From positions 1 through 44,211 of the forward strand of contig JAEOTQ010000024.1 of NCBI GenBank assembly GCA_016839785.1: 44,211 bases of DNA, read 5' to 3'. The DNA comes from Candidatus Hodarchaeota archaeon (lineage in GTDB: Archaea > Asgardarchaeota > Heimdallarchaeia > Hodarchaeales > Hodarchaeaceae). This document shows positions 25,440 through 34,303 of this stretch, piece after piece. The position numbers and the translations under genes were made by a program. Positions within the stretch are counted from its first letter, which is position 1, and the number at the start of each line of letters is the position of its first letter. The notes under the pieces are model-generated. The model was not told the DNA's origin. It was given only the letters and a program-made list of their open reading frames with translations, and made no database searches.

Positions 25440-27503
25440 TCATTTCGTAAGTAAGTTCCTTAGCTCAATTAATACTTTGTCAATCTCGTTATTTGCTTTC
25501 CTAAGTTTATTATCATAATCGATTTTTAACTTAGCATAGGCCTCTTTTCCGATCCGACCTTGTGTCTTCTTCTTCTCTAATGATTCGATATTTAGTAAGT
25601 AATCTTCTCTACTAGCTTCAGCAACTTCAATAGATCGCATTGACAACCGTATTCGAGGATTTTTCTCCGAGAGTTTGCGTGAAACTGTAACAATTGTCCT
25701 ATCATTCTGTTGTTGTTGATTTCGGAGGATAATTTTCGTTTGTTCATATTCTCTAGCACTAATATTCTTCGATTTTCGTTTTCGATCTAACCTTAGAATT
25801 TGTTCACGAATTGCTGTTTTTTCTTCATATGATTTAACGAAACTTTTAATCATATCTAAAGGTATTTCTTCAAGTACAAGCTTGGTGGGTGTGTATCTGA
25901 ATGAGAAGTTTCTAACAAAAGCATATGCAAGACCAATTAATAAAAAGAATACTGAAAAAGTTAATGGAGTGTAAAGTTGGTTTAAGGGACTCATACCAAA
26001 TTCTATCCTCATTTGCTTGTTGCTAAGAGGGGTAATTTCTTCAAAACTAAATCGATATCCTCTACTATTAAACAATCCTAAGAAATGGTTTTTTTGAATA
26101 GCTGTAATGGAAACGGGACTTCTTAATGAACTTCTGTAGGTTGCGTCAGTAATCTTTGTTTCGGTTATTGAAGATCCGAACGGGAAAAGAAGTTCAAGCT
26201 CATATTTTTGAATTGTACAATTAAAGCTCATCGATAAGTCAGTTAATAGTTGAACTTTTCCTCCTCCGAGATTGTTAATAACCTTGGATGTTGGTTGTGC
26301 GTAAGAGAGAATGATATCATACTCTGCACCTTGTTCTATCTGAATTCTTGGTTTAAACTCAACTGATTTTTTCTGTGTCACTGGATCTGCATTTATCAGA
26401 GGAGTCATATTTCCATAATTATCAGTGATCCCAATTTTTCCTGATGAATCTGGTACATTGAATGATATTGTTGGAAAAGTGGGGCCTCCCAATGCGGTCG
26501 ATAATACGGGGCCAGATTTTAAACCTATATTCTTAATAGTTATGGTTTGTTTGGTGTACACGGTTCCCCATTCTGATACTTCGATAGTGGTCACTAAAGA
26601 TGTAAATGTCATAAAAGTCCCACTAACTTGGTAATAATCAATCGTCAAGTAATCAGTGAGATTTTGAGCAAGATTAGGGTTGTAAGAAGGAATGAAGTTT
26701 CGATCTGTAAGTGCTGTGAGGTTATAACTCCCGTATTCAGACTGATTTAACATTTCACGATCTATTGATTCTAATTCTTGGATATCCTCATACTGAAGAG
26801 TAGTTGCCTCTTGAGTAATAGTGCCAGTAAAATTGGTTTTAGTGGGGTTTAATGTATCATTATTTATTTTGATATCAACATCTGTTCCTACTCTCCATTC
26901 TAAATTGTATGAAGTTATGGGAATAGTAATAAGAGGTAAGAAACTTAAATTAAATTGGTAAGGATATTCAGTTTCCACTAGCTCATCGTTTTCATCATAA
27001 GAAATGGCATTTGGATGGTCCATATCTATGATTATTGTGACTAGTTCTTCAGAACCAATTGTAGGGAATTTAATAACAATTTCTGTTGTTTCGTTCCCAA
27101 TGTAGACATCGTATGTTGTGTTTTCTGTCGCTGTATCGTTTTCAGAGTAGATTCTGACATACTTAGAAGAATTAAACTCCATTGTTGGTAGGGTATAATT
27201 TAAGGCGTTGATGTCTTGGCTAGTATTAGTTGATATTTGAATTTCGGTTCTGGATGAAGTATACCCATATTGGTTTGCGGTTATAGTTCTATCTACGTTG
27301 ATTAGATGACTTGTGTTAGTAAATTCAGTAACATTGAAATACATTAATTCTGAGACATCAAGATTGTTTATTTTTGTATTCACTGAATCGGTGACCGTAT
27401 TCGCCTCACCAGCGTTAGCTTGGGTATCAGCGATCAAGAATGTCGAAGTGATAACTAATGCGAGTATTAAAAAACGCAAACCATTTCCTAGGATTTTCTT
27501 CAT
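25440..27503 (-). CDS. Ribophorin I (OST1)-like oligosaccharyltransferase subunit
   Basis: Type I membrane protein of 687 residues: signal peptide (about 8-31), a long beta-rich exterior region with many sequons, a single transmembrane helix (about 515-535) and a 152-residue cytosolic coiled-coil tail. Human ribophorin I has the same plan with a tail of about 150 residues. The membrane segment LYTPLTFSVFFLLIGLAYAF followed by VRNFSF resembles the human [20 protein letters not shown] followed by YVRLDFSI (from memory). The exterior region seems to contain two related beta domains. It shares its neighbourhood with SecY, divergent 531 bases away, and an OST48-like gene. It may be co-transcribed with the overlapping ferredoxin. 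Confidence 0.68.
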   Translation of the reverse strand: MKKILGNGLRFLILALVITSTFLIADTQANAGEANTVTDSVNTKINNLDVSELMYFNVTEFTNTSHLINVDRTITANQYGYTSSRTEIQISTNTSQDINALNYTLPTMEFNSSKYVRIYSENDTATENTTYDVYIGNETTEIVIKFPTIGSEELVTIIIDMDHPNAISYDENDELVETEYPYQFNLSFLPLITIPITSYNLEWRVGTDVDIKINNDTLNPTKTNFTGTITQEATTLQYEDIQELESIDREMLNQSEYGSYNLTALTDRNFIPSYNPNLAQNLTDYLTIDYYQVSGTFMTFTSLVTTIEVSEWGTVYTKQTITIKNIGLKSGPVLSTALGGPTFPTISFNVPDSSGKIGITDNYGNMTPLINADPVTQKKSVEFKPRIQIEQGAEYDIILSYAQPTSKVINNLGGGKVQLLTDLSMSFNCTIQKYELELLFPFGSSITETKITDATYRSSLRSPVSITAIQKNHFLGLFNSRGYRFSFEEITPLSNKQMRIEFGMSPLNQLYTPLTFSVFFLLIGLAYAFVRNFSFRYTPTKLVLEEIPLDMIKSFVKSYEEKTAIREQILRLDRKRKSKNISAREYEQTKIILRNQQQQNDRTIVTVSRKLSEKNPRIRLSMRSIEVAEASREDYLLNIESLEKKKTQGRIGKEAYAKLKIDYDNKLRKANNEIDKVLIELRNLLTK

Positions 27504-29628: not shown

Positions 29629-31011
29629 TTATATTGACGAATTCAAGTTAATTTGATTTTTTTCCTCAGGCTCTTTAGTATTAATAAGAATGAGAATTCC
29701 AAGCGCACTAAGGATGAAAAGAAAGAGGATTGCTTCGGATATTCCAATTTTTTCCATAATTTGGCCTAAGAGGCTGAATCCAAGTATGGAAATAATGAGA
29801 GATACTGTATTGAAGTAAGATTCTTGAGAGCTTCTATACTCTGAATTTGTTATATCATAGTATAACTGCCAGTGAAGGCCTGAGGTCAATCCACTGATAA
29901 GAAGCCGACTCAGGAAAATAATTACAATAAAAAGAAGTTTCCAATAAACGCTTGTATTGAGTAGGAGAATGAAGAAGAATGAAATCCAAGCAAAAGGGAA
30001 ATTAATACTATAAAATACAATTAAACCCTGACGGGGAGATTTAATGGACGCTGTAAATCTTCCTGAAAATCTACTAGATATTCCGTATACAAGATCCGTA
30101 ATTGAATTTACCAGGGATAAAATTAAGATAGCTACCGAAGCGAAATCGATTGTAAAGTAATTTCCACTCCCAAAATTTTCAGGAGATAATAAAAAATACA
30201 CCAATACTGGAAAAATGATTGTTGTAAAAGCCAATGAAGTAAAGCTCAGTATTCCAAAACATAGAAAATAAGGTGAGACATGAATGTAATTAACCATGAG
30301 TCTATTAGCCATACTTACAATATATGATTTTTTAAGGGTTGTTTCATTTTCTGATGGCAGAATAATATGTCTATTCCGTTCTATGGGTCTATAGTTCACC
30401 ATAATGGTGCATCCAAAGATGAATCCCACTAATGCAATAAATCCTTGTAGTAAAAATATCAATTGGGGAGCTAAATGAGCTTGAAATAATAAAAATCCTC
30501 CTAGAATTGTTAAAGAAGAAACTGCAATCATTTTAACAAATTTTACATTGCCCATGGTACTACGAAACAGCTTATCACTCTTTTCATTTTTATCGATAAG
30601 ATTTTCCCAAGAATTTAGAAACCATGCAATGAATGAGCCTGAAAGAAGAGCGGAGAATATACCAACTAATATTTCAAGGCATAATAGCTGAAACGAAGTT
30701 TTAGCGAAAATCAAACCGAAATAATATATTGTTAAACACCCCAAAGCACCACAAAATGCCCCTCTTTGCCCAAATCTGTCGGTGAGTACCCCCAAAGGGA
30801 GATCCAAGACGATTCCAAAAATCATACCAGTTGCTACAATACTTCCAAAAAGGGCGTACGATCCAAGAATTGAAATATAATATAAAGAAATCCATGTATG
30901 ACTAAGGTAAATTACTGCAATAATGAGCTCGAGACTGAAAAATTTCAAAGTTAGACTTTTCAGCTCTTCAGGATAATTTTTAACCCCCAATAAGGTATCA
31001 ACATATAGCAC
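29629..31011 (-). CDS. MFS transporter
   Basis: Twelve-helix major facilitator family membrane protein of 460 residues. The loop between helices 2 and 3 carries motif A (GVLTDRFGQR), which supports the family call; substrate is unknown. The frame begins with TTG at 31026, but the GGAGGT site lies just inside it and is seven bases before GTG 31011, so that GTG is the better start. It is the last gene of the operon GTPase-KaiC-roadblock-FIST-MFS, 36 bases after the FIST stop. Co-transcription suggests that transport is linked to the sensing or signalling genes upstream. Confidence 0.78.
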   Translation of the reverse strand: MLYVDTLLGVKNYPEELKSLTLKFFSLELIIAVIYLSHTWISLYYISILGSYALFGSIVATGMIFGIVLDLPLGVLTDRFGQRGAFCGALGCLTIYYFGLIFAKTSFQLLCLEILVGIFSALLSGSFIAWFLNSWENLIDKNEKSDKLFRSTMGNVKFVKMIAVSSLTILGGFLLFQAHLAPQLIFLLQGFIALVGFIFGCTIMVNYRPIERNRHIILPSENETTLKKSYIVSMANRLMVNYIHVSPYFLCFGILSFTSLAFTTIIFPVLVYFLLSPENFGSGNYFTIDFASVAILILSLVNSITDLVYGISSRFSGRFTASIKSPRQGLIVFYSINFPFAWISFFFILLLNTSVYWKLLFIVIIFLSRLLISGLTSGLHWQLYYDITNSEYRSSQESYFNTVSLIISILGFSLLGQIMEKIGISEAILFLFILSALGILILINTKEPEEKNQINLNSSI

Positions 31012-31047
31012 ATGCTTGACCTCCAAGTTAACAAAGAAAATTCCTAA

Positions 31048-32421
31048 TTATGTAGGTGAAAGTTGCTGTGCGATACTGGAGACTAAACTAAAGTTAACAA
31101 TAGGGAAAGATTGAGAATTCACCTCTCCTCCAGAAATGATGACTAGATACGGTACCTTACCTAAATTCTTTTTATAATATTCAAGATATTGTTGAAATCG
31201 ATCTCCGACAATCATTGCACGATTTCCACAATCAAAGAATAAACCAAATTTGGTGTTGTCTTCAATTAAAGATGATAAGCTTTTATCTAACAAGTTTTCA
31301 ATTGTTACCGCGCTTTGGTTACAAATATACGATTGGAATTGTTCTTTATAATCAACATATAGCTTTTTAGCTACCTGATTCGGTGCTGTAATTAAAGCAT
31401 GATTAAGATTTGGATTTATTGAAAGTCCATATAAGTTCTGACTCTTTTTATTATCAAGAATACATAAAGGTCTAAAGGGGTGATAGTAAAAGTATTTTTG
31501 GGTACATTCTTCAAGAATTTCTGGAGTTTTCTCCATCTCAAATAATTTAAGCAAAGAAATTGCCCCCCATTGCCCGTTTATACGTGGGATGAAACCCCCA
31601 TCTAAATAACTGTCAAGAGAAAATGGTTTTTGATAATCTACTGTCGCTCCGGTGTCCGTTTTACTCATAAATCTTAATTCGGGAGAACTCAGAGATATAA
31701 ACGTCATAGAATCTTTAAATGCTTTATAATTGTAAAACTGGTACGATTTATTCATTGAAATTGAGTCTACACCAAAGGTACCAGTATAATGAATACCTCG
31801 TTCATATAATTCTTGAAATAATGGCCATGCTGATGAATATGAGATTCCAATACCACCTATGTTCATGAGGAAATTAACAATTTTCCCTGAAAATCGGGAA
31901 AGAGCCGGAAAATCCCTCCAGACTCGATTATTTAACGCAAAGAATGGATTAAAGCCTTTAAGTCTATGGTTCAATAAATTTACCATAAGTTTTGGGAATC
32001 CTAGACCAGGTGGGAAAAAAATAAAACTTGTAGAAGAATTCTGTCGTAATTCTTTAGTTTCAATGTCTGTACATTTCTTTAAGATTTTCTTCGTTTTAGC
32101 CATAGTTCTAATACGAAAACGCTTTACAAGCTGTGTTCTAACAGAGATACCTGAAAAAAACATGATAGCTGCTCCTTTCAAACCATAATCCTGATTATTG
32201 GCTATTCCAATTCCTGAGCATCCCGCTAATGGAGTGTTAGGATATTTCTTCTTAATGATCTTCAAAGATTGACTATAGATATTTTTTCCACCTGGATGAG
32301 TTCCTGTAAAGTACAGAATTCCAGTTGGTTGAGTATTCAGCTCTTTTTCAGCCTGTTCAAGGGCGTTTTTCGTAGCCAGTTTTAAATTGTGATTGATACA
32401 TAGACCAACGGATGCTTTCAT
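31048..32421 (-). CDS. FIST-domain sensory protein
   Basis: FIST proteins are small-molecule sensory modules with FIST_N and FIST_C parts. In this 457-residue protein the N-terminal part has TPLAGCSGIGI (about 63-73) in the place of the usual GCST segment, and the C-terminal part has LFFDCGNRAMIVGDRFQQY (about 396-414) and PYLVIISGGEV (425-435), the FIST_C pattern of C-x-G-R and G-E. No kinase or other output domain is attached, so it must act through partners. It starts five bases after the roadblock-like stop and precedes the MFS transporter. The ligand may be an amino acid, by analogy to the family, but this is not shown. Confidence 0.7.
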   Translation of the reverse strand: MKASVGLCINHNLKLATKNALEQAEKELNTQPTGILYFTGTHPGGKNIYSQSLKIIKKKYPNTPLAGCSGIGIANNQDYGLKGAAIMFFSGISVRTQLVKRFRIRTMAKTKKILKKCTDIETKELRQNSSTSFIFFPPGLGFPKLMVNLLNHRLKGFNPFFALNNRVWRDFPALSRFSGKIVNFLMNIGGIGISYSSAWPLFQELYERGIHYTGTFGVDSISMNKSYQFYNYKAFKDSMTFISLSSPELRFMSKTDTGATVDYQKPFSLDSYLDGGFIPRINGQWGAISLLKLFEMEKTPEILEECTQKYFYYHPFRPLCILDNKKSQNLYGLSINPNLNHALITAPNQVAKKLYVDYKEQFQSYICNQSAVTIENLLDKSLSSLIEDNTKFGLFFDCGNRAMIVGDRFQQYLEYYKKNLGKVPYLVIISGGEVNSQSFPIVNFSLVSSIAQQLSPT

Positions 32422-32426
32422 TGTTT

Positions 32427-32867
32427 TTAATCCCCTATTGATTGTTTCCTATCAATTATTAATCCTAATCGTTTCGCGGTTCTGCTCATCTCTATTTCCA
32501 TTAATCCTGTATTTGCTCTTGAATGTAAAATTGCAACTAGAATTCCTGAATTACCAGTACGATAGAAATAAACCGGTATCGCTTCATTTTGATTTATCTG
32601 CTTATTATATTTTATGGATCTTGCACCATGTTTGAGTTCTTCTTTGGTTTTGGAAATAATCTCTTTAACCCACTTAATAACGGATAATATCAAGTTAGAA
32701 GTTTCTGTATCATAAAAAGATGATATTACTCTACCATCTAAACGAAAAAGAATTGTCGCTTTCACATCTCGAAAAGTGAAAAGATGGTTTGCTTCTGTCT
32801 GGATAGAGGAGATCGCTTTTGTTAATCTTAAAGCCTGGTCGTCAATTTCACGCGTTTGAGATATCAT
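32427..32867 (-). CDS. Roadblock/LC7-like protein
   Basis: A 146-residue protein with the alpha/beta order of roadblock/LC7 proteins: a helix, then strand ATILFRLDGRVISSFYD, a long helix (SNLILSVIKWVKEIISKTKEE), strands around ARSIKY and EAIPVYFYR, the GILVAILHSRANTGLMEIE strand-helix and a final helix. Roadblock proteins act as platforms, GAPs or GEFs for small GTPases (MglB, Ragulator). The frame is open to 32933 inside the upstream gene; ATG 32867 overlaps the KaiC-like stop by 20 bases and gives a full domain, suggesting coupled translation. A Ras-like GTPase is two genes upstream, the likely partner. Confidence 0.62.
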   Translation of the reverse strand: MISQTREIDDQALRLTKAISSIQTEANHLFTFRDVKATILFRLDGRVISSFYDTETSNLILSVIKWVKEIISKTKEELKHGARSIKYNKQINQNEAIPVYFYRTGNSGILVAILHSRANTGLMEIEMSRTAKRLGLIIDRKQSIGD

Positions 32868-33597
32868 ATACAATAAGTCCTTTATCCTTTTGGAAACCGA
32901 TGGGTTGAGGAGTTTCAGAGTGCGATGATCCACGGAATTTTCTTATGCTTAATGTTCTATTGTAAATTCCCCCTAGTCCGATATGTTCAAGTTCTATTAT
33001 AGAATCAGACAGAAAAAGAGGAATTCTTGCCAACACATCGCCAAAGCCCTTTTCTAATGTAATTACTGATGTTCCAATTTCTCTTAAGGAAGAAAAAATA
33101 CGATTAATTGCATTACGTTGTTGATTTGGGTCCGAGATTTCAAGGAGTAATGGGGTCAAAGGATCAATTGCTATTCGTATACCTCCGGAATATTTGGAGG
33201 CGGTTTCCTTTATCACTTCAAGATATTTAGGAAGTTCATTCATGAAAAATCTTAATCCAATCTCTCCTGAAGTTAATTCTGAATCAACATTGAAAGCAAC
33301 TTGGAATTGTAAATTTCCTTCTCGATATTTCTTGTTAAAGTTTTTTAGGCCGATATCGCTACAATCTCTTAATACCGAGTTTATATTCTGTTCTAAAGAA
33401 ACATAAAGCGCTGGAGTATGTAGATCATCAGAACAGTACTGCCAACAAAAAGTGGATTTGCCACACCCAGGATCCGCAATGATTACATTCACTGAATGCT
33501 CTCTAAATCCACCATTCACAAGCTTGTCAAACCCGATAACGCCACTGTGTATTCTCGAATTTTGCTCATTAATCGTTTTTCTTAATAATTTTTGCAT
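32848..33597 (-). CDS. KaiC-like RecA-superfamily ATPase, single domain
   Basis: A 249-residue KaiC-family ATPase. It has the entry motif SGVIGFDKLVNGGF (18-31), Walker A ADPGCGKST (41-49), strand YVSLEQ (65-70) where KaiC has a catalytic EE pair (here E69-Q70), Walker B RIAID with D145, and the C-terminal signature IRKFRGSSHS. Single-domain KaiC-like proteins in archaea are thought to act in signalling, including motility control (ArlH is a relative). A GAGGAA site precedes the ATG. It starts ten bases after the GTPase stop, so the pair is tightly linked. Confidence 0.88.
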   Translation of the reverse strand: MQKLLRKTINEQNSRIHSGVIGFDKLVNGGFREHSVNVIIADPGCGKSTFCWQYCSDDLHTPALYVSLEQNINSVLRDCSDIGLKNFNKKYREGNLQFQVAFNVDSELTSGEIGLRFFMNELPKYLEVIKETASKYSGGIRIAIDPLTPLLLEISDPNQQRNAINRIFSSLREIGTSVITLEKGFGDVLARIPLFLSDSIIELEHIGLGGIYNRTLSIRKFRGSSHSETPQPIGFQKDKGLIVYDISNA

Positions 33598-33607
33598 AAT
33601 TAATTCC

Positions 33608-34216
33608 TCATGAAACTAGAAGTTTGTTAGACAATTGTTTGTTTGAGTTTGAAGATATATTACTTAATTTGCTGTTTTTTCTTTCGATCGTTAGTAGGAC
33701 TTTCTCAAAAATATTCATGACTGATTTTATATCCTTAGCTGAACATTTAAAAGAAGTAATACAGTTGAACCTTTGAATATATCGTGCTAAATTAAAATTT
33801 TTCTCATCATCGGTTGCTAAGTCGGATTTAGTGCCGATTAAAAATCGTGGGATAGTCGGTGTTATGAACTCAAGCCATTCAGAAAGATTGAATAAGGAAG
33901 AAAGATCGGTAAGGTCAAAACAAAGTAATGCTGCATCTGCACCTTTGCAGAACTCACCAAAGACTCCCATATGTTTGAAATGTTCTTGACCCCCAAGGTC
34001 CCAAATCTGCAATTTACTCACATCCTTGTCTGAATGGGTGATAATCTTTGAATGGAACTCAACTGCGATCGTTTGTTTCGATTTCGTAAAAAAATAATTA
34101 TCAATGTATGATTTAGAAATTGTAGTTTTTCCTACACCTCCCTCTCCTAAAAGTACTATTTTTATCGGTTTTTTTTCTTTCGAAGGAACTAACTGCAAAT
34201 AATACACCGATTTCAT
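33608..34216 (-). CDS. Ras-superfamily small GTPase
   Basis: A 202-residue Rab/Ras-like GTPase. G1 is GEGGVGKT (24-31), G2 threonine T49 in SKQTIAVEF, G3 WDLGGQEHF (72-80) with catalytic Q77, G4 GTKSDL (128-133) and G5 CSAKD (158-162). The DLGGQ form of G3 is seen in Arf/Rag-like and many Asgard GTPases. The C-terminal tail is serine/asparagine-rich with no terminal cysteine, so there is no prenylation signal. It heads the five-gene reverse operon with a KaiC-like ATPase and a roadblock-like protein. Its start region contains a TATA-like element near 34243-34252, suggesting a short leader. Abundant Ras-like GTPases are a feature of Asgard archaea. Confidence 0.92.
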   Translation of the reverse strand: MKSVYYLQLVPSKEKKPIKIVLLGEGGVGKTTISKSYIDNYFFTKSKQTIAVEFHSKIITHSDKDVSKLQIWDLGGQEHFKHMGVFGEFCKGADAALLCFDLTDLSSLFNLSEWLEFITPTIPRFLIGTKSDLATDDEKNFNLARYIQRFNCITSFKCSAKDIKSVMNIFEKVLLTIERKNSKLSNISSNSNKQLSNKLLVS

Positions 34217-34263
34217 AACTTGAGCTTTTCATTTTAAAGTCCCTAAAATAATGGATTTCTGGG

Positions 34264-34273
34264 ATATTATAAA
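34264..34273 (+). promoter_or_regulatory. Candidate TATA box for the pilin-like gene
   Basis: ATATTATAAAC-type element about 31-40 bases before the ATG at 34304. A start about 25 bases downstream would give an almost leaderless mRNA, in agreement with the lack of a Shine-Dalgarno site there. Confidence 0.4.
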
Positions 34274-34303
34274 CAAACTTGGGCTAATTCCTACGATTGA
34301 ATC

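Follow-up and report, generated by a model that had tools for sequence, protein, structure and literature searches.

Signal hubs built around KaiC-family ATPases have been described in archaea (Makarova, Galperin and Koonin 2017, cited in PMC5847659). In their V4R–KaiC–roadblock-like form they resemble the locus described here, with a KaiC of the same subfamily encoded beside a sensor domain and a roadblock fold. The locus lies in a 44,211-nucleotide stretch of DNA (the window) from a Candidatus Hodarchaeota archaeon, an Asgard archaeon whose closest named relatives are metagenome-assembled Candidatus Hodarchaeota and Heimdallarchaeota. It differs from these hubs in having a FIST domain in the place of V4R, a short, single-domain roadblock protein and a co-encoded Ras-like GTPase. 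The MglA/MglB pair likewise consists of a Ras-like GTPase and a roadblock protein; however, the window operon adds KaiC and FIST, and not every locus keeps the GTPase. Among the NCBIfam models, none of the MglA type matched, and the MglB model scored far below its cut-off. Rag GTPases and Ragulator also bring together a roadblock fold and a small GTPase, but the window GTPase scores 20.9 bits against the Gtr1_RagA profile (cut-off 22.0), placing it outside the Rag/Gtr family, and consists of a G domain only, with no room for the roadblock domain in which Rag proteins end. In the NosP–NosK two-component system, a FIST sensor is co-encoded with a nucleotide-using partner, as it is here; unlike that system, the window operon contains no histidine kinase or response regulator, and its FIST protein does not have an invariant His.

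Asgard archaea are the closest known relatives of eukaryotes, and their genomes are rich both in small GTPases, which number in the dozens, and in roadblock proteins. Matching the two from genome layout is hard, as they generally do not share operons; this was noted for the small GTPase genes of MK-D1 in a review of Asgard Rab, roadblock and TRAPPC3 proteins, the same protein classes as in the window operon (PMC10933270). In contrast to MK-D1, the window GTPase does share an operon with a roadblock gene. The genes for a sensor-like protein, an adaptor and KaiC adjoin one another, in most cases together with a GTPase gene, so that this GTPase can be matched to a likely regulator; the operon supplies both a candidate regulator and a candidate sensor for one GTPase. 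Here, too, a roadblock protein is tied to a KaiC ATPase and not to GTPases alone, which bears on the origin of roadblock-based GTPase control in eukaryotes. Among openly licensed papers, we found none naming KaiC, FIST and roadblock together and none linking KaiC with MglB in archaea, in agreement with an earlier note on this DNA, which knew of no described system of such composition. The link between KaiC and roadblock may already have been mentioned in the 2017 work on archaeal KaiC hubs. The operon as a whole looks like an undescribed signalling module akin to those hubs.

The operon consists of five open reading frames on the minus strand (Table 1). Their identities are as the earlier note had given them: Ras, KaiC, FIST and MFS are recognised by Pfam (MFS_1 with E 6.7e-10), and roadblock by a structure model and Foldseek. 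The proposed single same-strand operon is also borne out, with spacings from GTPase to MFS of 10, −20, 5 and 21 bases; only the last gap had been given differently, as 36 bases, presumably from a later MFS start. The roadblock gene begins inside the KaiC gene, sharing its last 20 bases, and its reading frame can be extended as far as a GTG at 32933. Near 34232–34239, a TATA-like, AT-rich element looks alike, compared by eye, in seven congeners. Purifying selection acts on each of the five genes, with dN/dS of 0.02–0.16 between close species, MFS being the fastest-changing.

Table 1. Features of the operon at positions 29629–34216 of the window and of the region upstream.
Feature	Position	Strand	Basis
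Ras-superfamily small GTPase, 202 aa	33608..34216	-	Pfam Ras; G motifs in alignment
KaiC-family ATPase, single-domain, 249 aa	32848..33597	-	Pfam KaiC; alignment
Roadblock/LC7-fold protein, 146 aa	32427..32867	-	AlphaFold model and Foldseek
FIST-domain protein, 457 aa, Cys398 and Glu433 conserved	31048..32421	-	Pfam; Foldseek; alignments
MFS transporter, 465 aa	29629..31026	-	Pfam MFS_1; synteny
Spacer separating divergent genes, probable operon promoter	34217..34303	-	comparison by eye

The KaiC subfamily occurs in 32 of the 228 genomes of the phylum, and all 32 also encode the matching roadblock and FIST proteins. The sets are nested, with roadblock in 33 and FIST in 34 of the 228. Two genomes with FIST and no KaiC are interrupted at this very place, one (G008) by the end of the contig and the other (G010) by a gap; a loss of KaiC and GTPase from G010 was considered and rejected, because a stretch of N interrupts its contig at this point. 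Co-occurrence of the three proteins is far from chance. In each of the 21 loci read, their genes directly adjoin one another and mostly overlap or lie less than 20 bases apart. In the window's genus, where ten genomes (the window's included) are readable across the locus, the order KaiC–roadblock–FIST is found in ten of ten and GTPase–KaiC–roadblock–FIST in eight, while an MFS gene follows in each of the nine genomes that extend far enough. In a second family of the class and one genome of a third, the order is KaiC–roadblock–FIST–GTPase (12/12 loci), with a KaiC/roadblock overlap of 4 bases every time. The second family has no MFS gene at the locus, which makes MFS part of the operon in the window's genus only. 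Second-family proteins are about 33% (KaiC), 27–32% (roadblock), 21% (FIST) and 29% (GTPase) identical to those of the window.

The core of the operon is, therefore, KaiC–roadblock–FIST, with a lineage-variable GTPase and a genus-specific MFS transporter. Conservation of gene order, which the earlier note had named as a test, extends to this core in both families; it does not extend to the GTPase, which changes sides or is lost, or to MFS, and the five genes do not form a set of equals as had been supposed. Nor is KaiC an added amplifier, since it belongs to the constant unit.

The roadblock assignment comes from structure. No Pfam family matched the 32427–32867 protein at E values up to 1, the Roadblock/LC7 profile PF03259 among them. 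Its AlphaFold model (pLDDT 88, pTM 0.82) retrieved MglB, Asgard Roadblock3 and Ragulator proteins in Foldseek, with E values as low as 3.8e-7 and a probability of 1.00; MglB was the top match and, together with Asgard Roadblock3, the closest to the model. As the sequence is divergent and PF03259 does not match, membership of Roadblock/LC7 is by fold only. The modelled roadblock fold is a confident one, and the earlier note, which would have been overturned by a different fold, was right on this point.

Roadblock proteins also partner KaiC and FIST elsewhere. In euryarchaea (Methanosarcinaceae and Thermoplasmata-like), a roadblock-like protein of 260 aa comes after a KaiC of the same subfamily, and hhalign matches its N-terminal half to the profile of the window roadblock protein (E 5.6e-7); in the three loci scanned, KaiC is directly preceded by a V4R-domain gene (3/3). 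Three other Asgard families link FIST with roadblock-like proteins, LuxE and LuxC, and one of them also with a gelsolin-repeat protein. Seen with KaiC, with FIST and with GTPases, roadblock is thus the element common to three contexts. The conserved roadblock–roadblock–(gelsolin repeat)–FIST–LuxE–LuxC operon is present in loci L053, L054, L055, L057, L058, L059 and L060 (for instance, L055:5233–11680), and puts a eukaryote-like cytoskeletal domain and a sensor beside a fatty-acid reductase pair.

The KaiC protein belongs to its family by a wide score (PF06745, E 6.6e-29, 101.4 bits, cut-off 26.6) and contains the Walker A motif ADPGCGKST (GxxxxGKST) and the motif DPLTP. It has one domain and scores 44.3 bits against the two-domain circadian KaiC model TIGR02655, for which the cut-off is 546. 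Where KaiC proteins usually have a Glu-Glu pair, those of the window's genus have Glu-Gln (LEQN); in the second family the pair is Glu-Glu (FEE). With Gln replacing the second Glu of this catalytic pair, the ATPase activity of KaiC in the genus may be weak.

The FIST protein matches FIST_N (E 9.8e-9, 35.8 bits, cut-off 23.2), while FIST_C stays at 24.0 bits (E 4.6e-5, cut-off 28.5). For its structure model (pLDDT 75, pTM 0.81), all four Foldseek matches below E 1e-3 are FBXO22, making the FIST domain of this human protein the only strong structural match. Unlike FBXO22, the window protein has no F-box and is encoded in an archaeal operon, and FIST queries against PDB sequences gave nothing relevant. 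When FIST proteins from bacteria, haloarchaea and Asgard archaea are aligned, one Cys is invariant and one Glu nearly so; these are Cys398 and Glu433 of the window protein. The two lie 35 residues apart in the window protein, and 36 apart in FBXO22, in Nostoc and in the second family. In FBXO22, C326, with E362 nearby, binds aldehydes covalently (PMC13316043), and Cys398 and Glu433 probably correspond to this pair; as FBXO22 is undetectable by sequence, the match is drawn from fold, conservation and spacing rather than from a residue alignment. The Cys–Glu pair, together with the LuxC and LuxE genes that adjoin related FIST genes, would point to a thiol-reactive (aldehyde-like) or acyl-derived ligand rather than to the nutrient sensing suggested in the earlier note. 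LuxC itself was considered as a general source of aldehyde; all five of the genus genomes tested have it, but among three second-family genomes it is weak in one and absent in two, and with so patchy a distribution it is not a general partner.

Our preferred reading, to which we give about an even chance, is a cytosolic module in which the FIST sensor acts through a roadblock dimer on the KaiC ATPase; the GTPase would be a variable output, and the MFS transporter an addition made in the genus. FIST would bind a small ligand at a site including the conserved Cys–Glu pair. The roadblock protein, the gene of which is closely coupled to both neighbours, would form a homodimer and relay the ligand state to KaiC. 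The KaiC-type ATPase is presumably hexameric, and its nucleotide state may be the core switch. The Ras-like GTPase, co-encoded in most lineages, would be an extra output, and the roadblock dimer that relays to KaiC probably also holds or regulates it; the genus-level transporter perhaps carries the ligand or its product.

The GTPase belongs to the Ras superfamily (Pfam Ras, E 3.4e-31, 108.5 bits, cut-off 21.6; G1 GEGGVGKT, G3 WDLGGQ, G4 TKSD). Its best solved relatives are Ypt7/Rab7, at about 1e-21, and it ends in SNKLLVS, with no Rab-type prenylation Cys at the C-terminus. Its closest paralogues, about 60% identical, are encoded directly behind roadblock genes in three genomes; the group of GTPases to which it belongs thus keeps company with roadblock proteins, making roadblock control of the operon GTPase plausible. 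One congener has such a paralogous roadblock–GTPase arrangement followed by a different MFS gene, which overlaps the GTPase gene by 4 bases (L087:5023–7376).

The main rival to our preferred reading, and the view taken in the earlier note, is centred on the GTPase. In it, GTPase and roadblock would form the axis, as in MglA/MglB or Rag/Ragulator, with the dimer as GAP, GEF or scaffold, and FIST and KaiC would tune the cycle. The likeness of the roadblock model to MglB and Asgard Roadblock3 and the paired paralogues agree with this, as does the conserved orientation in which roadblock dimers bind small GTPases (reviewed in PMC10933270). However, the core persists where the GTPase does not. The locus of congener G003 has no GTPase gene, and that of G004 has in its place a degraded 164-aa open frame (L063:454–948), which still aligns with the operon GTPase and has lost the P-loop and G3; KaiC, roadblock and FIST are intact in both. 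G003 has two close paralogues of the GTPase, and no other close copy was found in G004. In addition, no GTPase was detected at the euryarchaeal KaiC–roadblock loci, and the GTPase gene is upstream of the core in the window's genus and downstream of FIST in the second family. We consider the GTPase-centred arrangement rather unlikely.

Could the GTPase and the transporter instead be passengers, with KaiC–roadblock–FIST the only functional unit? The window's genome has at least 41 Ras-superfamily genes, so a chance neighbour is possible, the GTPase is missing or degraded in the two congeners, and MFS is absent from the second family. Orthology between the operon GTPases of the two families is also unsupported: they are not reciprocal best matches, other GTPases ranking higher in reciprocal searches. 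A tree groups both operon types with five paralogues (support 92/72), on long branches, and on these sequences a single origin is neither firmly supported nor rejected; two independent recruitments, if that is what occurred, would themselves argue for a functional link. Against passengers stand the retention of an intact GTPase in eight of the ten genus genomes, with gaps of at most 10 bases and low dN/dS, and its position 8–42 bases after FIST in 12 of 12 loci of the second-family type. We judge the passenger explanation decidedly improbable. It is still less likely that FIST is a haem-based NO sensor and the module an NO response in which KaiC and roadblock replace the histidine kinase: the bacterial FIST proteins known as NosP bind both haem and NO and control a kinase encoded in their operon (PMC12570481), but two alignments contain no invariant His among the Asgard FIST proteins (a Cys-ligated haem would still be possible), a kinase gene is absent from the operon in both families, and related FIST genes adjoin acyl-reduction enzymes.

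Returning to the preferred reading, in which FIST signals through roadblock to KaiC, a wider evolutionary proposal can be made, although we think it unlikely. FIST proteins may be ancient thiol sensors of aldehydes or other electrophilic lipid-derived metabolites, their Cys–Glu site having been retained in FBXO22. In Asgard archaea they would signal via roadblock dimers to KaiC and Ras-like GTPases, a Ragulator–Rag-like route of metabolite sensing that would predate eukaryotes.

The neighbourhood of the operon contains several further genes. In the window, a 70-aa gene lies opposite the operon, and a 687-aa protein of no known family is encoded at 25440–27503, in a position conserved across the genus. 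Second-family loci have different flanks, with genes for ribosomal proteins L10 and L1 and NAD synthase. Where these loci reach far enough, a 105-aa CxxC protein, with no Pfam family over cut-off, directly follows the GTPase (L040:9333–9650). The same locus encodes a 141-aa protein (L040:4611–5036) with a weak match to the oligosaccharyltransferase subunit OST3/OST6, and a divergently transcribed 252-aa protein next to the operon (L040:5128–5886) with weak matches to PCI (1.6e-5) and to the E3 UFM1 ligase UFL1 (1.9e-5).
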